From Arthrobacter sp. NIO-1057 (lineage in GTDB: Bacteria; Actinomycetota; Actinomycetes; Actinomycetales; Micrococcaceae), in the NCBI RefSeq assembly GCF_900094805.1, contig NZ_FMAT01000001.1, positions 1,188,196 to 1,252,195 on the forward strand: a stretch of DNA of 64,000 nucleotides. Direction: 5' to 3'. Position numbers and translations under genes: made by a program. The notes beneath the pieces are model-generated. The model was not told the DNA's origin and ran no database searches. It saw only the letters and a program-made list of their open reading frames with translations. This document shows positions 1 through 21,160 of the stretch, in pieces; positions within the stretch are counted from its first letter, which is position 1; every line of letters begins with the position of its first letter.

Positions 1-2261
1 TGAAGGAGTTCAACAGCCGAATACGGAACAAAATTAATAGTGGTTGGGAAGCGCCGTGGTAAACCCGCATTCATCGTCAAGAAGTCTTGGATCGGTTCAA
101 CATACCCTGCTGCAATAACGAGGAATCTTCCTTTGTCATCACTCATCCGTTTCATCAACGTATTGACGGCTTCTACGCCAGGATTATTCGATGAATCATC
201 CTTTAGAGTGTAGGCTTCGTCGATAAATAGAATTCCGCCCATAGCCTTATCAATTTGCTCATTCGTTTTTGGCCCGGTCTGTCCTACATAACCGGAAACA
301 AGGCCTGACCTGTCCACTTCAATCACGTGGCCGCTAGGTAGAAGACCCAAAGCGCGATACAAGCGAGCCAGCAACCTGGCAATTGTCGTTTTACCTGTGC
401 CGGGGGGACCCGTGAACAGCAAATGCGGCAAATCAATAGCGATAGGGCCTTGGCCTAGCTCGGCACGGCGTTGCATCGCTTCAACGCTTGCACACAGGGA
501 GCGTACCTGAGCCTTTAGCTTCGGCTGCCCAACCTTGGCATCAAGCTCAGCCAGAACGTCTTCGACACGCTCAGTTGTCGTTCCGCGGCGTCCGATGCCC
601 ATATCGTCGCACGCTGCTAAAACGTCTTCTTCAGAAATCGTAGACAGTGAGTCAAGATCTAAAGTTTGAGCATCGCTTACTCTCAAGTCTCGATATTCAG
701 AAGATTTTGACATTAGATTACGCATAGTGCGGGCATTGCCCCAGTCACTTTTATCAAATCCACCGCGTAGTTCCTCTTCGGTGAGCCGTTGCAGCAGAAG
801 GACTTCGGCAGTTTCACTCAGACTATTATCGTTCTTCCTAGACATGATTTGCGCAATATCTACAAGTTCTTCGGGAGAATATGATTCAAATTCTATAAAC
901 GAGGAGAATCTGGATGGGATTCCTGGATTTGATTTCAGGAATCCATCCATTTCGTCCGTATAGCCTGCCGCGATGCAGACGATCTGCCCCTGGTTGTCCT
1001 CAATGCCCTTGAGAAGCGTGTCTATCGCTTGCGGGCCAAAATCATTCTGTCCCCCAGATGCGAGACTATAAGCTTCATCAATGAATAGAACACCACCCAA
1101 CGCTTCTTCAATCGCGGCCTGCGTTTTTTCCTCCGTACCACCGATGTGCGAAGCAACGAGCTTAGTTCGATCCACTTCGATCAGTTTGTCAGTCGGCAGG
1201 ATATCGAGGGCATAAAATAGCTCCGCAAGAAGTCGGGCTACGGATGTTTTTCCCGTGCCTGGAGGGCCGCTAAAAATGAAATTCTTGGTAAGACTACTGC
1301 CTTTTAGCCCAAGCTCAGCACGGTGCTTGGCAAGCTCGACCTGTCGCACTATACGTTCGACTTGGTTCTTAACCGATGCTTGCCCAGTGAACTCTTCTAG
1401 TTTCGCCAAAACGTCGCTCTTCTGTGGCTTCGAACGAGCCAACTTCCGTGCTGATGCAGAGATTCTTTGTTGATAGATGGTAATTGAAGACGAGCTGCCC
1501 CAATATCGGTGACAGTAGCCCACATATCCGTTTTTGCCAGAACTTCGCGTAAGGCGAAGGATCTTGGAGTCTTCCGACACGCCAATACTCGGATTCCCAA
1601 ATTCCTGGTACATAGAGCTTGCCACGAACGCAGCCCCAACGGTCCAGCGGCTGTCTACTGGGATTAGGGCCGGTATGCCAAGAACCTGAGCAGTCAAAGG
1701 ACTACCTAGCTTACCCTTGTCATTTCGGAAGATCACAGAGCTAGGTGTAACCGCAATGAAAAACTCTTCCGTTTCCCCAGTCCGACCAAGGTTCTGCAAG
1801 TCGTCGTTCTGGAGAACAGCCTTTGTGCTCAGTCCTGCAGTCGTGAACTGCTTATAGTTCTCCAGCATCTGCGAGGGATCCCAAAGGTCCAACTCGAAAA
1901 GTGGCTGCTGATTCAATGATTGCACTTCAAGAACAATGGCGTCATCGACGACTCGTTGAATGAAACTTGCTTTTTCTTCAGCTACAAAGAGGTCAAGAGC
2001 ATCGGCAAGGCCTGCAGGGATGGCGGCCCAAAGATTCGTGTCTTCGACACCATCTACACTCATAGTCGTGTAGGCAAGCCCTCGGGAGTCACTTGCTACG
2101 AGGAACAAAGAGTTCAGTCGAAAATTCACCAGAGTGCCTGTAAAAGCGTAGTCCAAACCATCTCGGCTTCGCGCGAACTTAACCAAATCTAGTGCGGCCA
2201 AAAACTCATCGACTCGAAAAGTTCCGAGCGAAATGGATTCAATTGCCTCCTGGCCGGCCAT
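1..2261 (-). CDS. Tandem AAA+ ATPase, CbxX/CfqX (EccA-like) family, 3' end outside window
   Basis: The frame is open from an ATG at 2261 to the left edge, giving 753 residues without a stop, so the gene is cut by the window and not frameshifted. An AGGGAGAAG-like ribosome site precedes the ATG. Residues 1 to about 300 form an N-terminal domain I do not recognise. Two AAA+ modules follow, each with Walker A GPPGTGKT (residues 332-339 and 618-625) and a Walker B ending LFIDEAY (about 390-397 and 677-684). Tandem modules of this kind are typical of CbxX/CfqX ATPases, which include type VII secretion EccA and the Rubisco activase CbbX. Members remodel or disassemble partner proteins with ATP. No other secretion gene is visible, so a type VII role is unsupported. 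It is the last visible gene of a four-gene operon, 71 bases after its neighbour. Confidence 0.88.
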   Translation of the reverse strand, partial: MAGQEAIESISLGTFRVDEFLAALDLVKFARSRDGLDYAFTGTLVNFRLNSLFLVASDSRGLAYTTMSVDGVEDTNLWAAIPAGLADALDLFVAEEKASFIQRVVDDAIVLEVQSLNQQPLFELDLWDPSQMLENYKQFTTAGLSTKAVLQNDDLQNLGRTGETEEFFIAVTPSSVIFRNDKGKLGSPLTAQVLGIPALIPVDSRWTVGAAFVASSMYQEFGNPSIGVSEDSKILRLTRSSGKNGYVGYCHRYWGSSSSITIYQQRISASARKLARSKPQKSDVLAKLEEFTGQASVKNQVERIVRQVELAKHRAELGLKGSSLTKNFIFSGPPGTGKTSVARLLAELFYALDILPTDKLIEVDRTKLVASHIGGTEEKTQAAIEEALGGVLFIDEAYSLASGGQNDFGPQAIDTLLKGIEDNQGQIVCIAAGYTDEMDGFLKSNPGIPSRFSSFIEFESYSPEELVDIAQIMSRKNDNSLSETAEVLLLQRLTEEELRGGFDKSDWGNARTMRNLMSKSSEYRDLRVSDAQTLDLDSLSTISEEDVLAACDDMGIGRRGTTTERVEDVLAELDAKVGQPKLKAQVRSLCASVEAMQRRAELGQGPIAIDLPHLLFTGPPGTGKTTIARLLARLYRALGLLPSGHVIEVDRSGLVSGYVGQTGPKTNEQIDKAMGGILFIDEAYTLKDDSSNNPGVEAVNTLMKRMSDDKGRFLVIAAGYVEPIQDFLTMNAGLPRRFPTTINFVPYSAVELL

Positions 2262-2332
2262 ATTTCTTCTCCCTTTAAATATGTTTCATACTGATCTAGT
2301 GGGCATGTCGAGGGCTGCCCGACTGATTACGT

Positions 2333-3136
2333 CTAGCCATTTCTTAGCGGGCGATGTCTATCCTTGCTTGACTCTTTCGAAATTAGAGTTTCTTGCGCCA
2401 CTGGTGGCGTCGGCAACACAAAATGCTCTGGAACTTCATCGCTTATCAAGATCTCCTCAAAACAATGCGGCTGCTCATGAAGTTCGGTTGCGAGTAAGTT
2501 CTCATTCAGAACCGCTCGATTATTTTCTAATTCCTGCTCTATATGAAGTGCGCGTTGCTCCGCCTCAAACACAAGCTCGAGCTCATCGTCCAGATCAAAA
2601 TCGTCCTCTTCAAAGATTTCTTGACTTGAGGCCTTCCGAGATGAATACGCATTGGCACGTTCAGTAAGTATCGGTTGCACTCCGCCTTTGACCCAGTACT
2701 TGTTCTTCTCTACTAGTTCAAATGAGGAATCTGGAAAGCAGGCAAGACCGCTTTCCCCCCAGCCTTCGTGAGTGGGGAAAATTAGCTCTACACCAGAGAG
2801 AACACCTACAACCACGAGTTGCGACTCATCCGAGCCGATCTTGACTAGATCTGTATCATTAAGGTTTGCTGACAAGTGGTCTTGTACGTCGCCAGGCAAC
2901 AGACATCGAAGGGATTCAGTCCCTGACAGACTCTTGACATACTGGTGATGAACTGCGCCACGAGTCGGACCATCTGACCCGATCAGGTGGATCTGCCCGT
3001 TCGAACTGCTCAGATTCAAGTAATGGAAAAATACGCCATTCAAGAGGGAATGGTGATCGGTGGATCTACCTACGTCTATCTTCCTTAGCCCATCGATCAA
3101 GTCTTTGATCATGACTTCGCAAATCCACGTAGTCAT
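2333..3136 (-). CDS. Hypothetical protein with strongly acidic segment
   Basis: This 267-residue protein is not recognised. It starts with ATG behind a good GGAGGG site. Residues 1 to about 160 look globular and contain no predicted membrane segment or signal peptide. A run rich in Asp and Glu follows at about residues 175-215 (EEDDFDLDDELELVFEAEQ), then a charged tail ending in Arg-rich sequence. The acidic stretch may be a flexible or helical linker. The gene lies 34 bases after the NERD protein and 71 bases before the AAA+ ATPase on the same strand, so it is very probably co-transcribed with them and may be an adaptor or substrate of the ATPase. That role is inferred from position only. 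Confidence 0.65.
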   Translation of the reverse strand: MTTWICEVMIKDLIDGLRKIDVGRSTDHHSLLNGVFFHYLNLSSSNGQIHLIGSDGPTRGAVHHQYVKSLSGTESLRCLLPGDVQDHLSANLNDTDLVKIGSDESQLVVVGVLSGVELIFPTHEGWGESGLACFPDSSFELVEKNKYWVKGGVQPILTERANAYSSRKASSQEIFEEDDFDLDDELELVFEAEQRALHIEQELENNRAVLNENLLATELHEQPHCFEEILISDEVPEHFVLPTPPVAQETLISKESSKDRHRPLRNG

Positions 3137-3170
3137 CGTTTACCCTCCAGCATAATTTCCGATTTTCAAA

Positions 3171-4619
3171 TCAAAATGGTGCGCCGCAGTCAAAGCAGAA
3201 TCCTGCATCGACTTGAACTTCAGCACTGCACTCAGCACATTTCTTTGCTGCCTCCGGCTTATTCTCTGCCTGAGTATTCGATGTCAGTTGGTCACGCGAG
3301 GGCACAACAGCATCCCCGGAATTTGTTGCAACGCTGGGGCCTGATCCTCGTGAATGTTTCTTAGGCAAATGGTTTGCACTCGGCCGCGTATTTTTTGTAG
3401 ATTCTGGGCGTTGCCCTAGTCCGAGTGCCGACCCATCTGTTCCCTTTAGGAGAGAACTCATCATCCCGACAAGAATCTCCGAATCGGGTTGTCGTGAATC
3501 GAACGAACCTTCGTGACTAAAACGCGACAAGAATTCAGGAAGACCAACAGCAGGAATGTTTTCGGGCCACTGCACATCGACTAGTTTTCCGAGCCCGTCG
3601 TTTCGTGGCATCATGACAACGATTGGAACTACTTGAAAGTTAATTCCAGCCCTGGACAAACGATTCATAAGGCGTTCAGTAGCCATCTTCATGTTCTCTG
3701 ACATGGCCCGTGGCCTTCCGACATAACCGCCGGTATGATCGTCGACAGCAATAATATGAGGGCGAACGCGACCATCTTTTTCATCTTTGTGCATCTCTCG
3801 ACGCCAAGAAACACTGCCTTGCACATAATTTTTGACGTCTACCAACCAAAGTGAATTCTTCGAAATCAATACGCAATCGATGTCAGTATTGAACTTTGTA
3901 CTGGCTCCAATTTTTTCATCGGGCATTTGTACAGACCAGAAAGATGCGAATCGCGCCAGGATACCTTGGCTTTGCAGTGCTCGCGCAAAATTTACTTCGC
4001 CTATCTTTCCTAGCTGAACTTGCTGTTGGCCAAAACCAGATGCGTCCAGCCCAAGACCTGGCGTACCGTGCATTAGCGGATGGCTGACAAGGTCTATATT
4101 TTCGAGATTCTTTGGTTCGAATCCAGTTACGTACCCTGGGCCAGAAGCCGTATCCGCCCATTTCCTTTGACGGTTAATCCTCTGCGCGTGCTCCATTTCC
4201 GCTGAACGTACTTTAGCGATTTGCTCAAGTCTCTGCTTTTCACGCTTGACGTTCAAGTCCTTTTCCTGCGCTCGGCCCGTTGCTGAGTCAAGAATCGGTA
4301 AAGAGATCATTGATACAAGGAATGAAGTCCCCCAAAGAAACTGAATCGCCGCGACGGCTTCAAAGCGTTGTACTTCCATGAGAGCAAAGAACCCGGAAAT
4401 ACAGACAAACGCATACCCAAGAAATATGCCCGCTCTGAGAGTTGACCTACCCTTGGAGTCGAGCAGTCTCCAAGTCAATATTGATCCTGCAATAATTCCA
4501 GGGAAAGTCCACGCGCTCTGACCGATTATCCCCCAAGCGAAGGTTGTGGCGAGGCCGGTGACAATGGGTAAGGCCTTAAAGACCTTCTTCAAAAGTGAAT
4601 TCCTTGCTACATAATTCAT
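3171..4619 (-). CDS. Membrane-anchored NERD-domain protein with C-terminal zinc ribbon
   Basis: The reading frame can extend to 4697. The ATG at 4619 (MNYVARNSLL) is preferred because it has a GGAG site and leaves the upstream small gene intact. The 482-residue product has about four hydrophobic segments in the first 115 residues, a charged helical stretch rich in Glu, Arg and Lys (about 120-155), then a NERD domain from about residue 200. The domain has GEVNFARAL, NTDIDCVLI and LWLVDVKNY, matching the conserved Glu, Asp and Asp-x-Lys pattern of this restriction-endonuclease-like fold. A Ser/Pro-rich linker leads to a C-terminal zinc ribbon (CAEC and CFDC pairs). NERD proteins are thought to process nucleic acid; activity here is inferred. 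Membrane tethering plus a zinc ribbon is an unusual architecture worth noting beside an AAA+ ATPase. Confidence 0.8.
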   Translation of the reverse strand: MNYVARNSLLKKVFKALPIVTGLATTFAWGIIGQSAWTFPGIIAGSILTWRLLDSKGRSTLRAGIFLGYAFVCISGFFALMEVQRFEAVAAIQFLWGTSFLVSMISLPILDSATGRAQEKDLNVKREKQRLEQIAKVRSAEMEHAQRINRQRKWADTASGPGYVTGFEPKNLENIDLVSHPLMHGTPGLGLDASGFGQQQVQLGKIGEVNFARALQSQGILARFASFWSVQMPDEKIGASTKFNTDIDCVLISKNSLWLVDVKNYVQGSVSWRREMHKDEKDGRVRPHIIAVDDHTGGYVGRPRAMSENMKMATERLMNRLSRAGINFQVVPIVVMMPRNDGLGKLVDVQWPENIPAVGLPEFLSRFSHEGSFDSRQPDSEILVGMMSSLLKGTDGSALGLGQRPESTKNTRPSANHLPKKHSRGSGPSVATNSGDAVVPSRDQLTSNTQAENKPEAAKKCAECSAEVQVDAGFCFDCGAPF

Positions 4620-4666
4620 ATTCTTCGAGTCTCCAACGAAATTCTTTAAGTGTCCTCTGATGGTGT

Positions 4667-4849
4667 TTAGACAGCAAACTGCGAACCGTAAAACCACATG
4701 CCCCCAGAGAGCATCAGCAGACCCCAGCCCAACACGAAGCGTGCCGGTCGTTTAGCTGTGAACCGTTTTGGCGTAAATAAGGCAACGAACAGCACTATTC
4801 CTCCGATAAGGGCAATTATTGGCGCTATTCCGGAAAAAACTTCTGCCAT
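4667..4849 (-). CDS. Small two-TM membrane protein
   Basis: The 60-residue product starts with ATG seven bases behind a GGGAGTGA site. Two hydrophobic helices (about residues 7-26 and 38-57) flank a basic loop with KRFTAKRPAR, which predicts both ends outside and the loop in the cytoplasm. I do not recognise a family. It lies 47 bases upstream of the NERD protein start on the same strand and is probably the first gene of the operon. The strong ribosome site and the membrane design support a real gene despite its length. Confidence 0.65.
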   Translation of the reverse strand: MAEVFSGIAPIIALIGGIVLFVALFTPKRFTAKRPARFVLGWGLLMLSGGMWFYGSQFAV

Positions 4850-6339
4850 AAGGTCACTCCCAAATTTCTACTGAATTGATCTGCACGAATTCCCAGCCAA
4901 ATTATGCGCTGGAAAAGAATGCCACAGGTGCTCAAAATACAAAGACTGATACGTGCGTCTTGATGAGATCGGCCGCGAACTCTTCTGAACACAGGTGGTC
5001 ACAGCATCCCTTCATCAACTATTCAGGATTCGGTATCCCCATCTAACGTCTTCATTGGCAGATTTGAACTCCACGTGCCAACTGCCGGGCTGGTCGCCGA
5101 TTCCGCAGTAGACAAACTGCTCAGCCGTACCAATCCGAATCCTTTATTTGTCTGTGCCCTGCAATCGATTTACGCCAGATTCAATCATCTTGCCCGTTTT
5201 TCTTATTATTCATCGCGCACTAGTGAATAGTCCTTGATAAATCATCCACCGGCCATATCCGGTCAAGTCCGAACAAAACCAAACACTGCACTAGTTAACC
5301 TGTACGGTCGATTTCATATCTCTAGTTATTGGCCAAGTGCCCTTTGGCCACGTGGCGAATAGCATGCTCCCCGATTGCACAAATGAGAACTGGACTCTGC
5401 CCGTTGGCGTGCGTTCCACGGATATTCCAGATTACTGGGATAGGACGATCTAAGAATCTGCTCTCGTCCTCTCGATGAGAGGCTGGAAGGTGAATTAGCA
5501 GATCCCGAAAGACTTTTGTCGTTGACTAATGCTTGATTCGATATTTTGAGATCTTGTGTTTAGTAGCCGGAATTTAACTTTGAGCGGAGACATTCAAGTC
5601 GCAAATAATGAGACTTCAGGTAAGAACGAGTAACCTTATTGACGCACGGCTCTGACGAATTTATGACTGTCTTCCATGATTAATACACTGCGCCCTTGAG
5701 TCGTTTTTCAGGAATCATCCTGCTCACCAAGACCATGAACTTGGTAGGCTAACCGCCGCCAAGATATCGACATGCTTTCCACTACGTCCGAGCAACGGCT
5801 ACTACTCGGGTCAGCGATTACAGTACCGACTGAAGTTTGATTCACCTCTGCCTTGACTAGTACACCGTTGAGTCGCCGAAACAACGACTTCAGTGCCTAC
5901 GCGAACCTTGCCTAAACCAAAGTGAGTGCTCAGACCGTCCTCTGTGACTCCAGAGTGCTTATCTCCCACCAAGAGAGCGAAGACAGGACATCCGTACGTG
6001 GAGCGGAACCCTCGGGCATCACCTGCCGTGCTTACACGAGGATTATGGGGTCGAAGCCACGGACGTCAGCGCTAATCGAAATAGGTCCTCCGCCTATTTT
6101 CTTCTACACATACTCATGAAGTTCCTTCGGTTTACTCCGACATTATTCTCGACCCTCCGCCTTCGAAGCTAGTTCGTTCGGTACCGAAAATAGGATAGAC
6201 ACCACTGTCCAACAGCTTTCCGAACAACTCCGAACGGATGAAAAGCCTTCGCCCAAGTCATCAACGAAGCTACATCGGCCCTCCCCAGTAAGCTAGAGCT
6301 ACAAGCAATACGGCTTATGGAATTGTGAGGGTGCACCAA
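4850..6339. other. About 1.5 kb without a credible gene
   Basis: No open frame with a plausible start, ribosome site and protein-like composition spans this stretch. It must hold the promoter of the minus-strand operon ending at 4849 and that of the plus-strand gene at 6340. Short coding-like runs occur on the minus strand: one between about 5020 and 5135 reads through GIGDQPGSWHVEF and is closed by stops on both sides, another near 5800-5920 reads LGKVRVGTEVVV. They look like decayed gene remnants, but I cannot assign a family. A plus-strand frame at 5922-6119 has no ribosome site and unlikely composition. Confidence 0.5.
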
Positions 6340-7383
6340 ATGGAGGAACGGCTGGATGCGTCGGCGACACGAGACAGCTTGGATGCAGTTGTCGGCGATC
6401 TTCAGTTACTTCGGCTGAAAGCCGGCGAAATTTCTTACGCAGAAATCGTTCGACGGATTGCCAAGATCCGCGAAGCAAAAGGAATGGATCCTGCGGTATC
6501 AAAGCCTGCGCGAACAACCGTTTATGACGCTTTTAGACCCGGTAGAAGCAGAGTAAATGTCACCTTGGTCGGCGAAATCGTATTAGCCTTAGGCTGCACT
6601 GAGGCGGAAGCCCAAGCATGGAAACGCCGGTGCATCGAAGTGCGTTCCTTGGCCACCATCAAGCAACTGACGCCAGAAACCCCGGTTGCTGCCCTCCCAG
6701 CACAGAACGCTCCGCTCGTAGCCCCACCAACGATCGATGAATTACCTAAGGGTCGCTCTAAGGCACGGCTGGACTATAGAACGTTAATTCTCTGCCTTGC
6801 TATTAATGTTCTGGGTTTCTGGACGGTCTCGCAGACAGGGATCCCGCTCTACCTGGACATGATTGGTACTGCCGTTGCAGCCATTCTCTATGGCCCATGG
6901 ATAGGCGCCGGCATAGGGCTATCAACAAACCTCATCGGCCTAGGTATCACTGATGGAAGTTCGGCGGCCTTCAGCCTAGTAAATATCGCAGGCGCCTTGG
7001 TATGGGGCTACGGCGCCATGAAAATCAGAAAAAACAACTATCTGTGTAAATTTGTAATATTGAACGTATTGGTGGCGATAGTTTGCTCATTGCTCGCTAG
7101 TGTATTGCTAGTTTTAATTTTTGGGGGAGGCACCGGCCATGGTTCTGAGGTCACAATGAACACATTACTGGCGAAAACAAACTCTTTGGCAATTTCGGTA
7201 TTCCATACAAATATTATCTATTCACTGGCAGACAAGTTGCTGACTGGACTTTTGTCACTCACAATAATTAGCGCACTAGGTAAACGCGATCAATCGCCGA
7301 TTTCACATGATATTGAATGCGAAGTTGAAAATCTTCTACGGAGGCAAAACCTCAAGCAGCTAAATCGGTTTTTATCGATTTGA
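6340..7383 (+). CDS. HTH-like domain fused to ECF S-component-like membrane domain
   Basis: The ATG at 6340 has a GAGG site nine bases upstream and is preferred over the GTG at 6325. The 347-residue protein begins with a soluble all-helical part (about residues 10-100) whose RTTVYDAF...SRVNVTLVGEIVLALG pattern resembles the helix-turn-helix regions of actinobacterial XRE-type proteins. A Pro/Ala linker follows (about 105-140). Residues about 145-315 contain five or six membrane helices; the pattern YLDMIGTAVAAILYGPWIGA followed by a Gly-rich helix recalls substrate-binding S components of energy-coupling factor vitamin transporters. A short charged tail ends it. No EcfA or EcfT gene is nearby. 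A membrane-bound one-component sensor is a plausible reading, but this is inference. Confidence 0.65.
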   Translation: MEERLDASATRDSLDAVVGDLQLLRLKAGEISYAEIVRRIAKIREAKGMDPAVSKPARTTVYDAFRPGRSRVNVTLVGEIVLALGCTEAEAQAWKRRCIEVRSLATIKQLTPETPVAALPAQNAPLVAPPTIDELPKGRSKARLDYRTLILCLAINVLGFWTVSQTGIPLYLDMIGTAVAAILYGPWIGAGIGLSTNLIGLGITDGSSAAFSLVNIAGALVWGYGAMKIRKNNYLCKFVILNVLVAIVCSLLASVLLVLIFGGGTGHGSEVTMNTLLAKTNSLAISVFHTNIIYSLADKLLTGLLSLTIISALGKRDQSPISHDIECEVENLLRRQNLKQLNRFLSI

Positions 7384-7559
7384 TTCTTTGCTGCCAATAT
7401 ACGCGTCCTAAAGTTAAGATTGCAGACATCTGTGCAAGCAATTGAAAGTCTTGGTGCGGTAGCTCTATCTCGGCATTAAGTTAGCGGTTCCAAGCGCAAC
7501 TTTGGGACGCTCTCGCTTAATTCACTTTCAGGTCGGTATAGCTAGCGCTCATTTACCAT

Positions 7560-8519
7560 TCATGGACGTTGACTGAAGGTGGCCTTAATTGCCAAGTGGT
7601 CGGATCCCTGGATACGCAACGTTTCTTGTCCCAATGAGTCAAAGCCGCGCGACAAAACGTGATCAATACCGACGAGTGCAGGTACATTCCGGTCTGCCGG
7701 CCAGGTTGATAGAGGAAACAGCGAAGGCTCTTCGTCAATGACAGACGTGAGTTTCCTAAATTGCGGGTGCGTCCTCGTCGAATTGTAATCCCCCGCCAAA
7801 ATCACCGGTTTACCTGTTTGCTGATCCAAAAACTGCTTTAAGGCATCCAATCCGGTGCCCCAGCGTGTAGCGCTACCCAAAGGCGGATAGACGTGAACTC
7901 CGACAACAGTGAAATCCCCCAACGGCGAAGCAATGTCAACCACAGGCATCCCGTACCAATCGGTGGCCTGCGGACCAAGCGCCGCATCGCGTTCTTCGAG
8001 CGGATAGCGCGAAAAAACCACGGTATCGCGCTCTCCACCGGCGGTTACTTGAGAGCTGCGGTATTTCAACGAGACAAGTGCACCTTGGGCACGTAACCGG
8101 TCATGTAAGGACTCGCTCGTTTCGACAAGGACCAGCACATCAGGATTTGCCGTATTGATGTTTGTCGCCAGTTCTTTTGAATCAGCACCGGCTTTAAGTG
8201 CGTTGAATGAAAAGACGGTGATCATTGCAGCGGGGTCTGCTGCCGATGTCTGCTGTTTGCTAGACATAGCCAGATTCGGCACCACACCTGCAATCAGCAG
8301 CACAGCAACGATCACTGCGGCGATCCAGCGCCGTCTCATGAGTGCAAATATGACTACGAAGGTTACAGCGATTAATGCCCAAGGTTGAAAAGCTTGAAGA
8401 CGTGGGGTCCACCCAGAAGCTAGCCAGGGAATATAAGGTAGCGCGCCCACAGCACAGCTGAGCAGAATAAGAATCGCCCATAGATACGTAAAAGGTGGTC
8501 TTGGGCGATTCTTCGTCAT
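7560..8519 (-). CDS. Membrane-anchored endonuclease/exonuclease/phosphatase (EEP) family protein
   Basis: The 319-residue product has about three hydrophobic helices in its first 90 residues, then an EEP catalytic domain on what is probably the outer face. Family hallmarks are visible: VFSFNALKAG near residue 105 (metal-binding Asn), VLVLVETSES with the metal-binding Glu, VVGVHVYPP, ILAGDYNST with the catalytic Asp and Asn, and a C-terminal GSDHLAIKA with the Asp-His pair. The fold covers DNase I-like nucleases, sphingomyelinases and inositol phosphatases; the substrate cannot be told from sequence. It stands alone, with no close co-directional neighbour, and ends 177 bases from the convergent HTH-membrane gene. 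Confidence 0.85.
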   Translation of the reverse strand: MTKNRPRPPFTYLWAILILLSCAVGALPYIPWLASGWTPRLQAFQPWALIAVTFVVIFALMRRRWIAAVIVAVLLIAGVVPNLAMSSKQQTSAADPAAMITVFSFNALKAGADSKELATNINTANPDVLVLVETSESLHDRLRAQGALVSLKYRSSQVTAGGERDTVVFSRYPLEERDAALGPQATDWYGMPVVDIASPLGDFTVVGVHVYPPLGSATRWGTGLDALKQFLDQQTGKPVILAGDYNSTRTHPQFRKLTSVIDEEPSLFPLSTWPADRNVPALVGIDHVLSRGFDSLGQETLRIQGSDHLAIKATFSQRP

Positions 8520-8569
8520 GCCCTTAGCTTAGTTCAGTAACTTCAGGTCATCACTCAATTCGATGCGGA

Positions 8570-9076
8570 CTAGGACTGCTGGGCAGCCCAGGCCGCCACC
8601 CGTTGCGCGCTTTCTTCTTCGCTCAGGTCTTCAACCCTGCTCATGATCGTCCATCTGATTCCAAACGGATCAAGGATGGAGGCGAACCTGTCCCCGGAGA
8701 CAAAATTAGTCGCCGATTCCCTCACCGTCGCCCCTGCCTCGATGGCTTTGGCCAAGACCAAGTCCACATCTGCACAGTACAGTCCGAGCGAGTAGCAAGC
8801 ATTTGGCGCCTGCGGTGGTGGAACCAACCCATAGTCGGGGCTCGGCTCTCCAATTTGCAGGTGCCCCTGACCGAAATCGATCTCCGCATGAACGACCATC
8901 CCACCGATTTCTGTAGCATCAATGATTCGTGCGCCATACACATCTTTGTAGAAATCCAATGCTTGCGCAGCATTAGGTACAGCAAGAAAAGGAGTCAGCG
9001 ATGTTACTCCCTGTGGAACGCCAGCGGTGGTGTACTTTCCGGTGACACCGTGCACCTTTTCGTTTTCATTTTGCAT
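8570..9076 (-). CDS. VOC-family (PhnB/glyoxalase-like) protein
   Basis: The 168-residue protein has two repeated beta-alpha-beta-beta-beta units of the vicinal oxygen chelate fold: VTSLTPFLAVPNAAQALDF opens the first, and LGLYCADVDLVLAKA the second. DPFGIRWTIM near the C terminus matches the usual end of PhnB-like members. Metal-ligand positions are only partly conserved, so it may be a binding or resistance protein and not an active lyase; the substrate is unknown. It is divergent from the AraC-type gene starting at 9145, with 68 bases between starts, which suggests that the regulator controls it. Confidence 0.8.
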   Translation of the reverse strand: MQNENEKVHGVTGKYTTAGVPQGVTSLTPFLAVPNAAQALDFYKDVYGARIIDATEIGGMVVHAEIDFGQGHLQIGEPSPDYGLVPPPQAPNACYSLGLYCADVDLVLAKAIEAGATVRESATNFVSGDRFASILDPFGIRWTIMSRVEDLSEEESAQRVAAWAAQQS

Positions 9077-9144
9077 GCCTAGAGACTACGCCCGTGTGCC
9101 ATGCTGGAGCTTGTAAATTTGCGACGAATTTGAGGTGCTCACCG

Positions 9145-9939
9145 ATGACCGACATTCACGACGGTCGAGGCGTTCTATACCCATCGAGGCTCCCGGAATT
9201 CCAACGCATTGTTCCGCCAGAGCACTTACAACAGCACGTAAGTTGGTACTGGATTTCCCGCTGGGATATTGCGCCAGGCAGAGTTTCGCGCCAGCAACTT
9301 TTGCCGTTCCCGCTAATGAATCTCGTTGTGCAACCTGAAGGTGTGAGTATCTCCGGACCAAGTAGTGGAGCCTCGCATAGGGACCTACATGGCATCGGCT
9401 GGGCAGTCGCAGCCCTGCTTCGCCCTGCGGCGGCACCATTCTTTGCTTCCCAAGTAGCTAGTAGTCCGCAATTGCTTTTGAATCAAGAAGTTTCACTGGA
9501 CGCAGTAGACCTCCACCGTGGTCTCAAGGAAGAACATCTGATCACTGACGGGCGACAGCTCAACGAGCGATGCGCTCATCAACTCTCTTTATGGCTTGAG
9601 GAACGTCTCCCGCCCATCACACGGTCCGCGAACGTAGCCAACGAATTCTTAGATTATGTATCCAGTAATAGCGCAGCGCTTCGGGTCGACCAGGTGGCAA
9701 AACACTTGCATCTGACGGTACGTAGCTTGCAACGGCTGTCCCTAAAATATTTGGGGCTCTCTCCCCTGGCTGTGATCCGACGCTACCGCCTGCAGGAGGC
9801 AGCACTACAGCTACGTGAACATCCGCAAGCCTCGATGGCCGCTCTGGCCACGGAGCTTGGCTACACAGATCAGGCGCACTTGTCTACAGACTTCAAGAAG
9901 GTTCTCGGCTACTCTCCCAGCGATTACCGAAGCAGCTAG
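9145..9939 (+). CDS. AraC-family transcriptional regulator
   Basis: The ATG at 9145 has GAGGTG seven bases upstream and gives 264 residues; the frame also extends to a GTG at 9094 without a good site. Residues about 1-150 resemble the N-terminal sensing domain seen in actinobacterial AraC regulators (LQQHVSWYW near residue 30). The C terminus holds the two helix-turn-helix motifs of the family, with LRVDQVAKHLHLTVRSLQR and then the signature ALATELGYTDQAHLSTDFK and a final GYSPSDYR. It probably acts as a homodimer on the shared promoter with the divergent VOC gene. The effector is unknown. Confidence 0.88.
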   Translation: MTDIHDGRGVLYPSRLPEFQRIVPPEHLQQHVSWYWISRWDIAPGRVSRQQLLPFPLMNLVVQPEGVSISGPSSGASHRDLHGIGWAVAALLRPAAAPFFASQVASSPQLLLNQEVSLDAVDLHRGLKEEHLITDGRQLNERCAHQLSLWLEERLPPITRSANVANEFLDYVSSNSAALRVDQVAKHLHLTVRSLQRLSLKYLGLSPLAVIRRYRLQEAALQLREHPQASMAALATELGYTDQAHLSTDFKKVLGYSPSDYRSS

Positions 9940-10030
9940 TTGTTTCAGTTATCGCAACAAGCGCCAACACTGCTAGATGGCCTTTTGAAGAGTGAGCTGA
10001 CTCCGACGACCCAAATTCGTGAAGTACAGT

Positions 10031-10486
10031 TCACTGCCCTGAATTATCAGTTCTCTTGCTGATTTCTTCTGCGAACAGATTCGACATAAGCGTCACCGCT
10101 TCAATCGCAGTAATTCTTCGAACCTCTTGTTCGGCAACATGGAACTTATTTACCAAGATATTAACGACATCACTGGGTATTGCGTTGGCGACATCTTTCT
10201 GGGCGAAACCGCGATCAGGAAGAATCTTGCTTTTGACGCAGTTCCAAAAATCCTCGTTCGTTACTTCGAGCTGGCCTCGAAGAATGTGGTTCCACAACGC
10301 AACGCCGTAATCCTCGCGATTAATCGGATGACTAATACGTGTCAGCAGGACTCTTCCGTCCGGCAAGCCAAGCTCATAGTTGTGGTGTTGTGTTCCGGTC
10401 TTGCCCGTTGACGTCTTACGCCTCGTCCACTGTTCAGTTAGACAGAACTTCTCGTGATCAACTCTGGTCGCCGGTGGATACTTCAT
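10031..10486 (-). CDS. Putative toxin of a toxin-antitoxin-like pair
   Basis: The frame can extend to 10552, but the ATG at 10486 (MKYPPATRVDHEKF) lies two bases after the stop of the upstream gene and gives 151 residues. The sequence, with FCLTEQW near the start and LPDGRVLLTRISHP in the middle, belongs to a family that genome annotations of actinobacteria often call cytotoxic translational repressor of a toxin-antitoxin system. I know no experimental proof for this family. No RelE catalytic set can be identified. The near-overlap with a small upstream gene that follows a palindromic operator fits translational coupling of an antitoxin-first operon. Confidence 0.65.
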   Translation of the reverse strand: MKYPPATRVDHEKFCLTEQWTRRKTSTGKTGTQHHNYELGLPDGRVLLTRISHPINREDYGVALWNHILRGQLEVTNEDFWNCVKSKILPDRGFAQKDVANAIPSDVVNILVNKFHVAEQEVRRITAIEAVTLMSNLFAEEISKRTDNSGQ

Positions 10487-10488
10487 GG

Positions 10489-10896
10489 CTAAGCCAACCA
10501 TGCCTTCAGCTGGTCGTCCGAGGCAATATCGATAAGTTGAACAAGGCCCCAATTATTCTCATGGTTCGATGCAAGACGTAATCGCTCTGTCCAAGCTTGA
10601 GCATAGTCTCGAAGCGCGAGGACCATTTCGTCGAGGGCCTCATCATAGGTCGCACCGTCGGCAGAAATTGGGTATCGGGGAAGAAAAACACTCCAACCGT
10701 CAGCTTCAGGAACGACCTGAGCATCTGATGGGACTGTTTCGAGGAGAAATTTCAGCAGGCGCTTGGTATCGATGGCAGAGAATTGATCTCCCCCACGTGT
10801 CACGGACACTGGAAGTCCGTTCATAGCGACATCCATAACATCTTTTAGGTGTTCGCGCGCCGCCCTAAGCGTTGGATAATGCGCCGAGTTTGTCAT
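10489..10896 (-). CDS. Putative antitoxin (Phd/HicB-like) of the pair
   Basis: The ATG at 10896 is chosen because GAGGAGG sits six bases before it; the frame extends further to 10938, into the operator. The 135-residue protein opens with TLRAAREHLKDVMD and PVSVTRGGDQFSAID, which resembles the N-terminal DNA-binding fold of prevent-host-death antitoxins. A second part (about residues 70-115) with GWSVFLPRY and TYDEALDEMVLALRDYA resembles a HicB-like fold. So it may combine a repressor and a toxin-binding module. It precedes the putative toxin by two bases. Function is inferred from architecture and context. Confidence 0.65.
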   Translation of the reverse strand: MTNSAHYPTLRAAREHLKDVMDVAMNGLPVSVTRGGDQFSAIDTKRLLKFLLETVPSDAQVVPEADGWSVFLPRYPISADGATYDEALDEMVLALRDYAQAWTERLRLASNHENNWGLVQLIDIASDDQLKAWLA

Positions 10897-10921
10897 CGGA
10901 TCCTCCTCACAATGTCTGCAT

Positions 10922-10938
10922 GTGTACACAGTGTACAC
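10922..10938 (-). promoter_or_regulatory. Double GTGTACAC operator upstream of antitoxin
   Basis: Two copies of the perfect palindrome GTGTACAC lie one base apart (10922-10929 and 10931-10938), 26 bases upstream of the antitoxin start. Each copy is its own reverse complement, so a dimeric repressor could bind each. Autoregulation by antitoxin is usual in type II toxin-antitoxin operons; binding here is inferred. Confidence 0.6.
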
Positions 10939-11104
10939 GCACAGAGCTGAGGTAAGAAAGATCCCTGTTTGACCTTGAACTCAATGACCTATTTCCCTGT
11001 CGATTCCAGCTCGCAAATAGAATAATGTTCGTCAGCTGCAAACAAATATCAAAAGTTGGCTATCGCAGACTTTCTGCCTGGATCTTCCCCTTCGAGGGAA
11101 AGCC

Positions 11105-11265
11105 ACGAACTCTTCTTCCGAAGTGTAAGGCGAATTCACCATACACGAGATCCGTGTAATCGTGGGGAAAGCCCACTTAGCTTTCCTTACGTTCTTAACG
11201 AGAAGCCAGTGTTTGTCAGCAGACAGCGGGCGAGTCTCATCTTCGATAACGAAGACGCAGGCACG
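11105..11265 (-). pseudogene. Decayed duplicate of the rpsQ 3' end
   Basis: On the minus strand the stretch encodes [20 protein letters not shown], a mutated copy of the last residues of S17 ([20 protein letters not shown] at 11684-11750). The DNA match covers the coding end and the first part of the downstream terminator region; a hand alignment over about 81 bases gives 11 mismatches and one gap. The stop codon is lost and the terminator stem is broken in this copy. It is a relic of a local duplication. Confidence 0.8.
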
Positions 11266-11279
11266 GTCTTGAGGACCTT

Positions 11280-11489
11280 CTATTCAGCATCTGCCCGATG
11301 ATCACGCACAGCTGTTGAAACCGAAGCAATCAATGCGAACACGAGCGCGATCCAGAGGTTCTGGATTACCGAAAGAACCGAACGGTGGGCGATCAGGCAA
11401 TACGCGCCTAGCAACAAAGCAAGACCAGCAATTGCGATAGTGAGGTAGAGCCCCACTCGTTGTACAAGAACCTTGTCAGGTTTCTTCAA
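11280..11489 (-). CDS. Small two-TM membrane protein
   Basis: The 69-residue product begins with TTG (MKKPDKVLVQRVG), with AAAGGTGAG eight bases upstream. Two hydrophobic helices follow (about residues 11-31 and 42-60), and the tail VRDHRADAE is charged. I do not recognise a family. The gene lies between the real rpsQ and its decayed duplicate, so it was probably carried in by, or caught within, the duplication event. The ribosome site and membrane design support it, but the start codon is weak and the length is short. Confidence 0.5.
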   Translation of the reverse strand: MKKPDKVLVQRVGLYLTIAIAGLALLLGAYCLIAHRSVLSVIQNLWIALVFALIASVSTAVRDHRADAE

Positions 11490-11610
11490 AACCGAAACTC
11501 ACCTTTCAGCCGCTCGGAGCGACAGCCGTTTTCTCATTGAACCTAAAATTCTATATGGCCTTGTACTGGCTCGGCCTGTCTTTCATGGTCGAGGAGTTCC
11601 GAAACGCAGA

Positions 11611-11648
11611 AACGCCCCGAACTCTTCTTTCGAAGTGTTCGGGGCGTT
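11611..11648 (-). terminator. Terminator hairpin after rpsQ
   Basis: AACGCCCCGAAC (11611-11622) and GTTCGGGGCGTT (11637-11648) form a perfect 12-base stem with a 14-base loop, 35 bases beyond the rpsQ stop. It is the likely end of the S10 operon transcript. The following minus-strand sequence is not T-rich, so termination may not be purely intrinsic. Confidence 0.7.
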
Positions 11649-11683
11649 CTTCAATCACGAGATCCGTGAAATCGTGGGGAAGC

Positions 11684-11971
11684 TTACTTAGCCTTCTCTA
11701 CGATCTCAACGAGACGCCAGCGCTTGTCAGCAGACAGCGGGCGGGTCTCAGCGATAACAACCAAGTCGCCGATGCCGGCTTCGTTGTTCTCATCATGAGC
11801 CTTGACGTTCTTGTTGCGACGCATAACCTTGCCGTAGAGGGCGTGCTTTACACGGTCCTCAACGTCAACGACGATGGTCTTCTGCATCTTGTCGGATACC
11901 ACGTAACCACGGAGGGTCTTGCGGTAGTTACGCTCGGTAGCGTTATCCACACCGTTCTCCTTCTCGCTCAT
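11684..11971 (-). CDS. rpsQ: 30S ribosomal protein S17
   Basis: The 95-residue protein has the S17 OB-fold core with [20 protein letters not shown], the conserved [12 protein letters not shown], and the C-terminal [21 protein letters not shown]17 is a primary 16S rRNA-binding protein of the small subunit body. It overlaps the rpmC stop by one base (ATGA-type junction) and is the last gene of this S10 operon. rplN, which follows rpsQ in a continuous S10-spc array, is absent from the window; the accessory genes begin here instead. Confidence 0.97.
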
Positions 11972-17334: not shown

Positions 17335-20300
17335 CTACCGCTGTTCAGGATCCTGCGCTCCTGAATCCTTGGAAGAATCGGGCCCCTGTGCAGGATGCTG
17401 CGCAGGCTGGCCCCAAGGCAGTCGTGGCGCAGATGGCAAGTTAGCCGCTGATTGATCAACTGGTGGTTGCGCGGTTGATGGGCCCGCCCGATCAACCTTC
17501 ACTAGCTTGTAGACCGCTGCAATGATCAACCCCAGACCAATCAGCACCAGCCACAAGAACACCAATTCACGCAAGAACCACATCACGCTCAAGGTCAGGG
17601 CAATGGCGCCCCACCAGATAAACAGTCGCTGCCCTAATTTCAGTCCCCAGGCGATCAGGCATCCAAAGAAGAGCAACCCGATGATCTGCGCGATGGTGTT
17701 GGATTCGGCCAGGGCAGCAAAGAGCGTCATGTTGGCCGCGATGGATCCTGCGATGAGATACGCCCTCTCCAGGGAAGGATGAGCCTTGAGGTTGCGCCAG
17801 ATGACCAGCACTACCGCAGCCAAGCAGCAGTAGGCCATGATGCTGCTAAATTCTGGTTTGCCACTGATCCGCGAATAAGAGCTGAGAGCCAGCACGGCGC
17901 CCAGCACAATCAGCCCGTCCACCATATAGGCTTTGGCCCAGTCCGGTAGTTCGAAGAAGCACACCAGTACCCCCACACCAAAGATCAGGACCGCTCCCCC
18001 AATAATGCTCCAGCTGGCAACACCATCTACGTGCGCTAGGGCACCGGCGATCAGCAAAGCCAAGAGCATGCCGGCGAAGTAGATCCTTGACGCGGCGCCG
18101 AGTGGATCAGCATGTCGGTAATTCGCTGGCGGATAGTCCGGGGCTGGTTCTTTCATGCGCCCATGAGCCATGGCCAACAGGTAGAGCACGGCGCCTGTAG
18201 CGATAAGTGCCCACGAGATATCCATGGAATCCAGTACACGTAGTGAATCACCATCGCGAAGCTTGATCACCGCTTGCACGAGAGTCGCGGTAAGCATGAT
18301 GACCGAACCGAGAGCATACCAAGCACTCTTGCGAGTGATCACCAGCAGGGTCAAAGCCACGGCCAGGATAGCGTTGGCCGCCACCGCCCACCAAGTTTCA
18401 TTCTGCCACCATCCCGTGACCAGCGCTGGCAGGAAGATGGCCAGGGCAATGGCACTAGAGATGTGCCGCTGAGAACGCCAGCGCCATTCGGCCGCGATCG
18501 CGAGAAGCGCCATAACGAGTAAGAGTACGGCGGCAACCTGCTCGTTCCACCAACGAGATCGCAGCCATCCGCTCTGATCCGACATCACCGATGCTTGCAC
18601 GGTAATCACCACGATGATCGCCATGATCGGTGCGAAGAGATAATACTGCGCCCGGTGTGCCAGACCTGTGCGCTCTGCAATGAAAGCTGCGCACCCGTGG
18701 GTGCCGATGCACACGGCAGCTAAGAGAATCACACCACGGTCAGCCCAGCCTGCAAGCCATCCGTAGCCCAACACTGCAACAGGGATACCGATCAATAGGC
18801 CGATAGCGACCCAGCGCAATTCTTGTCTTAGTGGTTTGTGCTGTCGAATATTGATGAGCAGTCGAGTTAGCTGAGGGATACTCAGCGAGACGAGCAGTAA
18901 GGCGAAGCGTCCGTGAATGTCAAACTCCATGGACCGCGCAAACCACCACATCATCGAGCTAAAGAGCACCTGGGCAAGGCTCGCGTAGATAATCTTCCAA
19001 TTCTGATCATTGCTTCGGCGCACATGAACCAACAAATGCGCGAGCGCGCCAGTACCAATAACTAACGCGAACACCCATGCATCTCTTTCAAAGCTGAGCG
19101 CATAGAGTACCAACAGCGCCGATGCTTCGACCACCTTGATACTTTGCGCAGTGCGCCCAGACTGATGCTCGGGCGAGTGCAGGCGCCATCCACTGAGGAT
19201 CACCAACAAGGTCGTGATGCTCAGCGTGATGACAAACCACGGTAGGGAATTCAGCGTCAGGTAATCGAGGCGATCATAGGTGCCGCGCGCCGCGATGACC
19301 GAGAACTGCAGGTATCCCACGATCCCGATGGCTATCACGACCGAGGCGGCGATCCGCCACAACGTATGAATCCGTTTCACTCCGTCGCTAGCCAGGTTGG
19401 AGTTCAGCAGGACAATGACCCAGAGAATTTGTAGCACCAGAAGAACCGTGATCAGTCGTGCGCCCAACTCGCTACCCGTGGACAATGCCGGGAACGACTC
19501 GTGGATTGCCCCACCGAGCACACCGGCGGTAATCAACAACAATGCCCAACGAACATGTCCACAGATCTGCCGGAACAGGCCATCAGCGCGGTGATGCGCA
19601 AGGCTCAATCCAATGATCGCTAGGACAAAGAGCACCAAGGGCTGCCAGCCGTGCTGCTCCCTGCCGACCAGAACCACCAATGGCAGTGCGGAGATAACCA
19701 CCACTTCTGCCTTGGCTACCCGTAGGAGCCCAGGCAGGCACAGCAAGGCAAAAATAGGAAGCACGAGTAATCGCAGGACAGTTGATGTGGTCTCGTTAGC
19801 GAAGAAGCACGCGATAACCACGGAGACTAGTGCCAATCCCCAGAGCACTGAACGCTCTATTTGCAGGTGTCCTCGCGTCAATGGCATCCGTTTCCGATAG
19901 CCCTCGGAATAGAACAGCACGGCGACCGCCTGCAATCCAAAGACGAAAGCGAAGATCAGTGCGGTCGTGGTGTTAGACAATGCGAGGTAGTTGCAGGCCG
20001 CTAACACCATAAGTAAGAAGGTGAGGCGGGCCGCGAAGAATCGAAGTAGCCGTAGATTGCTCAACAGCCTCAAGGTGAGCAAGAGCTGAGCGGTGAGTAA
20101 TGCGAAGATCCAAAAGTAGTCGCGGCTTCGCAGAGACTCGAAGAGTATCAACGAAAGAACTACGACAAAAGCGGGCAGCAATTGTGCGGTGCCGAGAATA
20201 GCCTGGAAGAAAATCGAGTCTTGGATTTTCTTGCTTCGCACTGCCAAGAGCATGAGCACCACGGAGAGTAAAAGCAAGACCAGCATGTAGTTCAAGACTC

Positions 20301-21072
20301 CGCGCTGCATCGTGGTTGCTGATGCCAAGCCTGTACTGACCAGAATCAACACAGCCACCCAAGATAGGACTCGTGATTTCAGTTTGACGGTGGCATAGCC
20401 GACGGCCACCGTCCCAATCACGGAGAAGATCAGCCAAGTGCTTGGCCCAGAGATGTTCAAGGTGTTGTAGGTAGCGATGGCGCACAGCGGCAATAGAGCT
20501 AGCCCGGTACCGGCAAAGGCCGCTCCGGCCGGCCTGAGGGATGGCTTCACCGCGTAGGTGATTAGACCCCCGAGGTAGAACGCCACGGCAAGGAGGAAGA
20601 ACGCTACCAACTTGGCCACCGGTGGTAGCGCGAAACTTAGGAAGAGCGCCCCGGCAGCAACGATCATCAAGGCGGCCACGTAGAGCGTGATGTTGATATT
20701 GCGAAGTTCGCGTTCCCGCTTTGTCAGTACCTTGACTGGTTTCGCTTGAGTTTCGGGTCGCGATGCTGGGTTAGCCTGCTGTGGTACACCAATAACCGGA
20801 GGCTGCGCCGACGGCGCTCCGGCGATGTTGCTGGCGTCGGCTCCCGATGACTCTTGAAGTGGTACCCTCCCTAGCTCGCCGGGTGGAGCGTGCGTCAGTT
20901 GGCCGGTGCGACGTAAATAGTCATTGGCCGCTTCGTAGCCTTCTTGCCATGCTTCGCGCAAGCGTTGTGACGATGGCTCTGCTTGCTGTTGTGCGAGTTT
21001 GCGTCCGCGGGAGCGTCCAAAGAAGTATCCAGCAAGGGCCAGTACGATTACCAGCACAATCCAACCGATCAT
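17335..21072 (-). CDS. Giant polytopic membrane protein of unknown function
   Basis: The ATG at 21072 follows GGGGAG at eight bases and is better than the GTG at 21081. The 1245-residue product has one N-terminal helix (residues 1-20), a soluble linker with a Pro/Ala-rich tract to about residue 125, and then some thirty or more hydrophobic helices up to about residue 1190. A Pro/Gln-rich tail ends it. The first membrane block (RELRNINITLYVAALMIVAA) resembles the family annotated as SCO7613 C-terminal domain-containing membrane proteins in actinobacteria. No catalytic motif is evident and no partner gene is adjacent. The sequence shows no frameshift. Confidence 0.8.
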   Translation of the reverse strand: MIGWIVLVIVLALAGYFFGRSRGRKLAQQQAEPSSQRLREAWQEGYEAANDYLRRTGQLTHAPPGELGRVPLQESSGADASNIAGAPSAQPPVIGVPQQANPASRPETQAKPVKVLTKRERELRNINITLYVAALMIVAAGALFLSFALPPVAKLVAFFLLAVAFYLGGLITYAVKPSLRPAGAAFAGTGLALLPLCAIATYNTLNISGPSTWLIFSVIGTVAVGYATVKLKSRVLSWVAVLILVSTGLASATTMQRGVLNYMLVLLLLSVVLMLLAVRSKKIQDSIFFQAILGTAQLLPAFVVVLSLILFESLRSRDYFWIFALLTAQLLLTLRLLSNLRLLRFFAARLTFLLMVLAACNYLALSNTTTALIFAFVFGLQAVAVLFYSEGYRKRMPLTRGHLQIERSVLWGLALVSVVIACFFANETTSTVLRLLVLPIFALLCLPGLLRVAKAEVVVISALPLVVLVGREQHGWQPLVLFVLAIIGLSLAHHRADGLFRQICGHVRWALLLITAGVLGGAIHESFPALSTGSELGARLITVLLVLQILWVIVLLNSNLASDGVKRIHTLWRIAASVVIAIGIVGYLQFSVIAARGTYDRLDYLTLNSLPWFVITLSITTLLVILSGWRLHSPEHQSGRTAQSIKVVEASALLVLYALSFERDAWVFALVIGTGALAHLLVHVRRSNDQNWKIIYASLAQVLFSSMMWWFARSMEFDIHGRFALLLVSLSIPQLTRLLINIRQHKPLRQELRWVAIGLLIGIPVAVLGYGWLAGWADRGVILLAAVCIGTHGCAAFIAERTGLAHRAQYYLFAPIMAIIVVITVQASVMSDQSGWLRSRWWNEQVAAVLLLVMALLAIAAEWRWRSQRHISSAIALAIFLPALVTGWWQNETWWAVAANAILAVALTLLVITRKSAWYALGSVIMLTATLVQAVIKLRDGDSLRVLDSMDISWALIATGAVLYLLAMAHGRMKEPAPDYPPANYRHADPLGAASRIYFAGMLLALLIAGALAHVDGVASWSIIGGAVLIFGVGVLVCFFELPDWAKAYMVDGLIVLGAVLALSSYSRISGKPEFSSIMAYCCLAAVVLVIWRNLKAHPSLERAYLIAGSIAANMTLFAALAESNTIAQIIGLLFFGCLIAWGLKLGQRLFIWWGAIALTLSVMWFLRELVFLWLVLIGLGLIIAAVYKLVKVDRAGPSTAQPPVDQSAANLPSAPRLPWGQPAQHPAQGPDSSKDSGAQDPEQR

Positions 21073-21160
21073 TGAGCCCACTCCCCTAATGAATTTTTAG
21101 TGCGCCCTCCAATTAGACCAGCTTCTAGAAATATTCACTAGTTCAAGTTCGTTATTAAGC

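Follow-up and report, generated by a model that had tools for sequence, protein, structure and literature searches.

A five-module AAA+ protein with a sliding-clamp-like head beside a membrane NERD gene: a candidate remodelling machine in Arthrobacter sp. NIO-1057

Introduction

What would a very long AAA+ protein do beside a membrane protein with a NERD domain, and do the genes that share its operon serve one function or merely one address? The question is raised by four genes at the left end of a stretch of 64,000 nucleotides from Arthrobacter sp. NIO-1057 (G000:C3:1188196-1252195; this whole stretch is called the window below), which encode an AAA+ protein, a 267-residue protein with an acidic tail, a NERD protein and a hydrophobic micro-protein. 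The anatomy of the AAA+ protein and its locus, as read from the sequence, is well supported: a head resembling the second domain of the sliding clamp DnaN is followed by five AAA+ modules in a single chain. As to function, we tentatively put forward, for this acquired locus, an AAA+ remodelling machine with a clamp-like head that may recruit or mimic replication partners, possibly in control of the membrane NERD protein.

Results

Architecture and relatives of the AAA+ protein

The AAA+ gene is one intact frame of 1966 codons on the minus strand (C3:1184556-1190456), of which the window holds the part encoding the N-terminal 753 residues (1..2261, started by AAAGGGAGAAGAAAT-ATG, ribosome-binding site included). 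The initial annotation had read that part as a tandem AAA+ pair and had advised a look past the left edge. Its two intact Walker A motifs, at residues 332 and 618, are confirmed, and the look past the edge was rewarded with a further 3.6 kb or so of the gene; the pair itself gave way to four intact modules and one degenerate module in 1966, not 753, residues. The chain opens with a head of about 280 residues and continues with module 1 (residues 282-560, window 582..1418, minus strand), a match to PF00004 in which GPPGTGKT, LFIDEAY, AAGY, NPGIPSRF and GNAR are all intact. Module 2 (residues 561-858) starts within 1..581 on the same strand, and modules 3 (859-1157) and 4 (1158-1445) lie to the left of the window; by their motifs all three are intact. 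An acidic linker then leads to module 5 (1560-1790, also left of the window), which is degenerate, with GEAGTGKKT and LYLDS and without an Arg finger, and the chain closes, still left of the window, with a C-terminal domain of 187 residues that matched no Pfam or PHROG family.

Modules 1-4 retain GPPGTGKT[ST], hhhhDE, AAGY and NxG[IL]xxRF-like motifs. AAGY, the GY signature of sensor 1, stands at residues 433, 719, 1006 and 1293 and is missing from module 5, as is N-x-G-[IL]-x-x-R-F, with its Asn, of modules 1-4; set against the first finger of PMC10659427 (4 residues), the register of the modules' Asn is ambiguous. GNAR of module 1 is GNAG in modules 2-4; judged by eye, this Arg may be the second arginine finger, or sensor 2. 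Identity is 68-73% among modules 2-4, 41-44% between these and module 1, and about 29-31% between module 5 and the rest. Internal duplication thus seems to be how the chain grew, and the event was not very recent, since the DNA of modules 2-4 is only 70-74% identical over 549-611 aligned bases.

Among NCBIfam models the 753-residue part came closest to EccA (TIGR03922; 437.9 bits against an equivalog cut-off of 466.65), SpoVK (TIGR02881; 409.2 against 422.95) and CbbX (TIGR02880; 308.3 against 459.25), in each case below the curated cut-off. Membership of the clamp-loader clade was considered and rejected, the DnaX and RFC small-subunit models scoring about 42 bits against the 308-438 bits of the three models just named. 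Members of the SpoVK-EccA-CbbX clade are described in PMC10659427 as carrying Tyr in the GY signature of sensor 1 and as dedicated chaperones, with varied N-terminal domains proposed to recruit dedicated targets. The protein described here shares with them its module motifs (GPPGTGKT, LFIDEAY, AAGY, NxGxxxRF and WGNA) as well as its best NCBIfam matches, but departs from them in joining five modules, the last one degenerate, in one chain, in having Arg after GNA in module 1 only and Gly in modules 2-4, in carrying a clamp-like head and not a tetratricopeptide repeat (TPR) or beta-helix domain, and in having no adjoining type VII secretion system (T7SS).

With module 3 as query, 27 of 296 genomes of the class, its own included, matched at E <= 1e-55; the 26 other matches lie in frames of 787-927 residues, are 41-47% identical to it and come from one other actinobacterial family. 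Each of the five that we read (L084, L085, L087, L090 and L091) has two AAA+ modules, and four of them have, by eye, a hydrophobic N-terminus. On plasmids, matches to the AAA+ protein at E <= 1e-20 were seen in 266 records, but in no record did a single place cover 80% of it. Four such regions were opened: the gene is annotated as an AAA ATPase in one and as a beta-helix protein, with T7SS genes next to it, in the two from Streptomyces, while the fourth region is without annotation; the three annotated genes have two Walker A motifs each. These two-module EccA-like proteins (from the 26 genomes, the Streptomyces T7SS loci and a Virgibacillus plasmid) differ from the present chain at the N-terminus, and those on plasmids have no annotated NERD gene beside them. 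Neither the head nor the C-terminal domain found a match on plasmids, and viral contigs gave no match to the AAA+ protein; within its own genome, matches to the AAA+ part elsewhere are short and lie on contigs C5 and C12.

A head resembling domain 2 of DnaN

The resemblance of the head to the sliding clamp emerged from several searches. When residues 1-296 were compared by tblastn with 297 order-level genomes, two of the 296 other than its own matched (E of 9.1e-5 and 2.3e-4), in both cases in the second domain of DnaN, within an open reading frame (ORF) situated between DnaA-like and RecF-like frames; both of these dnaN ORFs match the DnaN of the NIO-1057 genome at E < 1e-10. The sole Pfam match of the head is PF02767, DNA_pol3_beta_2 (E=0.0038, 17.9 bits), and among PHROG families a DNA polymerase processivity factor ranks first (E=0.12). 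A hidden Markov model (HMM) built from 32 checked DnaN sequences scored 22.2 bits on the head, compared with 6.8 for the best of 2000 shuffles, and an HMM of domain 2 scored 25.7 bits, a value reached by none of 1000 shuffles (best, 6.0). A six-frame search of 80 genomes with PF02767 gave matches in 78; in it the head scored 19.8 bits in a frame of 1974 residues, the longest other matching frame having 592. By sequence similarity, the head is homologous to DnaN domain 2.

The clamp-like region occupies residues 1-140 (window 1842..2261, minus strand), with the best similarity over residues 14-97. For domains 1 and 3 of DnaN, neither residues 1-140 nor residues 125-296 scored higher than shuffles did, and residues 125-296 gave a weak score to domain 2 (3.3 bits, equalled by three of 1000 shuffles). 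The head differs from DnaN, with whose domain 2 its similarity lies, in that one domain only was detected and is fused to AAA+ modules; the genome retains a normal dnaN on contig C11. The head also contains the pentapeptide ELDLW (residues 123-127, window 1881-1895), which we take to resemble the clamp-binding consensus QLxLF, a likeness that may be due to chance.

The acidic-tailed and NERD proteins

The second gene (2333..3136, minus strand) encodes 267 residues, and the acidic tail attributed to it earlier is borne out by composition, with 26 D/E against 9 K/R in 107 residues. Its N-terminal half is weakly similar to the same clamp domain: the first 150 residues align with positions 8-100 of the 126 in the domain-2 profile at 3.1 bits, a score equalled by one of 3000 shuffles. 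With the head of the AAA+ protein added to the profile the score rose to 5.6 bits, which was reached by none of 3000 shuffles and none of 479 other ORF pieces (483 pieces without the head and the acidic protein, each of which was present twice). BLASTP of the acidic protein against the head gave nothing useful. A second clamp-like domain in this protein is suggestive only. Its relatives amount to one weak match (E=0.008) among 395 other genomes of the phylum, the ORFs there offering no lead, and none were found on plasmids.

The third gene (3171..4619, minus strand) encodes the NERD protein, whose nuclease-like domain, PF08378 (window about 3783-4073), scored 28.4 bits against the Pfam cut-off of 22.1. 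The zinc ribbon with which the initial annotation had credited it is discernible as a zinc-ribbon-like C-terminus (about 3174-3242) at sub-threshold Pfam scores only; the NERD assignment itself stands. Strong hydrophobic segments at residues 87-110 and 115-133 suggest that the protein is probably anchored in the membrane. Across the protein and four aligned relatives from plasmids, G230, G233, E234, D272, I273, D274, D287, K289, N290 and Y291 are invariant and the motif D287-V-K289 is kept in all five sequences; we take the invariant residues to be PD-(D/E)xK-like active-site positions, and the residues that the protein keeps look catalytic.

Relatives of the NERD protein are rare. Its own copy apart, one of 196 genomes of the family and one of 393 of the class gave a match, weak in both cases, and the Microbacterium ortholog, used as query, found relatives in three of 257 genomes of the order; four relatives were seen in the genome collection, seven on plasmids and four in the viral collection, with none in phages. 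The closest, the Microbacterium ortholog (L053), is 45% identical over residues 115-425 and adjoins a homolog (40%) of the divergent gene described in the next section, in the same divergent layout; within 10 kb it has no AAA gene, acidic protein or clamp head. A UvrD-PDDEXK helicase, a type I methylase or a type IIG restriction enzyme is encoded no more than 1 kb from three of the four genome-collection relatives, a count that comes without a background rate, and six of the seven on plasmids, all from Bifidobacterium, directly follow an ImmA/IrrE gene; in two of these six NERD-zinc-ribbon loci the gene ahead of the ImmA/IrrE peptidase is annotated as helix-turn-helix (HTH). L053 and L107 are surrounded, by eye, by ordinary genes. 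A membrane segment joined to a NERD domain is common to SmdA and to the Bifidobacterium and Arthrobacter plasmid proteins, and a zinc ribbon recurs in the Bifidobacterium relatives; unlike the protein described here, those on plasmids have no AAA neighbour. Another NERD beside an ATP-driven chaperone set is a relative of 617 residues (L108:1683-12964, G697:C31) in a chaperone-like cluster that contains, by eye, two Hsp70-type proteins, a GrpE-like and a J-domain-like protein and a WYL-like regulator.

The operon and its place between ribosomal-protein genes

The four genes fill window 1-4849, all on the minus strand, and the one-strand operon described in the initial annotation is upheld. The rightmost of them encodes the 60-residue micro-protein (4667..4849, started by GGGAGTGACCTT-ATG, ribosome site included), which has a hydrophobic stretch at residues 1-32 and exceeded the cut-off of no Pfam or NCBIfam family. 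The start first listed for the NERD protein, GTG 4697, which would make it 508 residues long, would overlap this gene; ATG 4619, with GGAG upstream, is the more likely start. The intergenic gaps are then 47, 34 and 71 bases, and a purine-rich ribosome site precedes all four starts.

The operon lies, together with a divergent gene, inside an insertion between rpsQ of the S10 operon and rplN of the spc operon. The initial annotation had placed it in an accessory stretch beside the S10 operon and thought this fitting for mobile cargo; that it is accessory cargo is supported. The divergent gene (6325..7383, plus strand) encodes an N-terminus that is HTH-like by eye and a membrane domain resembling an energy-coupling factor (ECF) transporter (PF12822, E=9.9e-5, below cut-off). 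The insertion measures 11,742 bp between its BLAST borders (G000:C3:1184032-1195773, of which window 1..7578 is a part) and stands in place of 167 bp of the closest relative, whose flanks are 99% identical in DNA on the left and 94% on the right. At 49%, its GC content is below the 54% of the window, and GC3 (GC at third codon positions) is alike, at 0.46-0.51, in all five genes. At E <= 1e-4 neither the operon proteins nor the HTH/ECF-like gene were found in the rpsQ-rplN interval of any of 12 other genomes of the genus, so that the insertion is seen at this site in one of 13, its own included. In those relatives the interval is occupied by one or more of three ordinary genes, which by eye are endonuclease/exonuclease/phosphatase-like, glyoxalase-like and AraC-like, and its gene content and spacing (window 7560-11684) vary among the 12; this spot between two ribosomal operons may be a hotspot for insertions.

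These comparisons mark the cassette as horizontally acquired. A mobile element with its own integrase was considered and rejected: the ORFs of the insertion include no integrase, no terminal repeat of more than 12 bases occurs at its ends, and no tRNA gene was found there; a fold at its left edge was not significant. The HTH/ECF-like gene also occurs in four of 17 other genomes of the genus, beside what are by eye metabolic genes, and for this reason its link to NERD is suggestive and not proof. Between it and the operon, window 4850-6324, about 1.5 kb, holds no convincing gene, no Rfam match and no convincing repeats, and the DNA of window 4000-7600 has no match on plasmids.

The initial annotation had also raised the prospect of an EccA/T7SS locus just outside the window. 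In the 30 kb left of the window the genes are, by eye, ribosomal, cell-wall and housekeeping ones, with no T7SS among them; matches to the EccC model in this genome, all below cut-off, lie on contigs C10 and C4 with none on C3, and the same model matches below cut-off in nine of 14 control genomes. A T7SS explanation for the locus was rejected on the housekeeping flank and on the location of the EccC matches on other contigs only. Elsewhere in the window we noted two overlapping small genes at 10031-10938, toxin-antitoxin-like by eye, which matched nothing in the intervals of the 12 relatives at E <= 1e-4, and, at 17335-21081, a protein of 1248 residues with a hydrophobic N-terminus, flanked by what are by eye the S10 operon and tuf.

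Discussion

With clamp loaders and comparable multi-module AAA+ proteins (the DnaX complex, RFC, dynein and midasin) the present protein has in common five AAA+ units, some of them inactive, and a clamp-like partner. It differs in belonging, by its family matches, to another AAA+ clade and in being a single chain, and clamp loading by it is only hypothetical. In the mechanism that we tentatively prefer, the five modules would form a single-chain motor, perhaps a pseudo-ring, and the clamp-like head would bind, either by itself or jointly with the acidic protein, clamp partners or the peptides through which replication proteins bind the clamp. Remodelling driven by ATP might then load, release or activate a target; the likeliest effector would be the membrane NERD protein, which might otherwise be the substrate. 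The most plausible setting would be conflict with replicating foreign DNA, or a response to DNA stress. The clamp-like domain makes the AAA+-driven nucleic-acid module proposed in the initial annotation somewhat more likely than before, if still hypothetical. A bolder version is improbable: in it the sliding-clamp domain and a pseudo-ring of five EccA/SpoVK-derived units would form one clamp-and-motor polypeptide which, with a second clamp-like subunit, would load onto, strip or mimic clamps and hand DNA or the replisome to a membrane NERD nuclease.

Several observations weigh against the preferred mechanism. Its weakest link is the connection between NERD and AAA, for which recurrence is lacking: AAA modules, head, acidic protein and AAA C-terminus were all absent (tblastn, E <= 1e-3) from 18 other NERD-type loci (seven plasmid, four genome-collection, three further genome and four viral-collection loci, with L109, a duplicate of L055, dropped and the weak matches in G135 and G922 outside the set), which represent fewer than 18 independent events, several being near-identical Bifidobacterium elements, and have flanks of 0.9 to 15 kb. 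A conserved NERD-AAA pair, the recurrent linkage for which the initial annotation had suggested a search and without which it would have counted its own reading as refuted, is rejected on these 18 loci. No second copy of the five-module chain with a clamp-like head appeared in the genome, plasmid and viral samples searched, the genome samples being partial, and no work on the combination of NERD, AAA and clamp head was found among open-licence papers. In the head, domain 2 alone was detected and no full clamp. Hhalign of the head with a partly faulty DnaN alignment, in which some frames were antisense, returned a probability of 5.6% (E=0.0069), and in the PF02767 search two low matches (15.7 and 14.2 bits), among the 79 other genomes, lay in frames not confirmed as DnaN. 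The 3.1-bit score of the acidic protein was reached by ten of the 483 ORF pieces, or by six of 479 once the copies of the head and of the protein itself are taken away, and many of these pieces are spurious frames. The PF02767 score of the head, 17.9 bits, is under the gathering cut-off of 27, and phmmer searches of PDB chains with the head and with the acidic protein returned no clamp. These last two results would suit a head that is an unrelated alpha/beta recruitment domain of an EccA-like protein, resembling a clamp by chance. We consider this very improbable in view of the margin by which the domain-2 score exceeds its shuffles and of the agreement of tblastn, Pfam, PHROG and two of our own HMMs on the same stretch.

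The absence of AAA genes from the other NERD loci agrees with a history of accretion, in which NERD and the HTH/ECF-like gene would be one old unit and the AAA+ and acidic proteins another, brought together by a common site and direction and not by function. The Microbacterium ortholog, with its HTH/ECF-like neighbour and none of the other partners, argues for such a history, as does the variability of the S10-spc interval in the genus. The gaps of just 34-71 bases on one strand, the good ribosome sites, the even GC3 and the presence of all genes in a single stretch absent from the closest relative are harder to reconcile with it, and the HTH/ECF-like gene is found among metabolic genes as well; accretion is credible, if on the doubtful side. 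An envelope chaperone without any role on DNA, in which the EccA/SpoVK-like protein would act on a membrane complex with NERD as an SmdA-like morphology factor, would follow the precedents of both families. Characterised members of the clade target secretion, the cell wall or Rubisco, according to PMC10659427, and SmdA is described in PMC9040797 as a membrane NERD protein required for normal cell morphology, in which NERD residues matter and whose NERD domain, as its authors allow, may act away from DNA, a further point against our proposal. The hydrophobic N-terminus of four of the five two-module relatives accords with such a role. SmdA, however, lacks several conserved NERD residues (PMC9040797), whereas here those common to the five aligned sequences are kept; a clamp-like head would be unexpected at the envelope, and no T7SS adjoins the locus. 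We think this role unlikely.

An antiphage or anti-plasmid cassette, whose head would sense phage or plasmid replication proteins and whose motor would activate a membrane NERD nuclease, would suit the accessory, rare and relatively AT-rich character of the locus, the proximity of three of four genome-collection NERD relatives to restriction or RecB-like genes, and the ImmA/IrrE genes preceding six of the seven on plasmids. That proximity is without a background control, and L053 and L107 lie among ordinary genes; no other defence gene was recognised in the insertion itself, and PADLOC matches are confined to the AAA part and look generic (the best being IetA at 61 bits and TRIP13 at 55), the other three operon proteins, NERD and acidic protein among them, having none at E <= 1. 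A role in antiphage defence, at which the initial annotation had hinted, must be called unproven, and we regard the cassette so conceived as unlikely.

Should the mechanism that we tentatively prefer be correct, a five-module chain with a sliding-clamp-like head would extend the SpoVK/EccA/CbbX clade towards replication and would represent a second way of joining a clamp to a multi-unit AAA+ motor, and the poorly understood NERD domain would gain a testable partner. If the parts prove unrelated, the locus would still be a rare cargo lodged between two ribosomal-protein operons.

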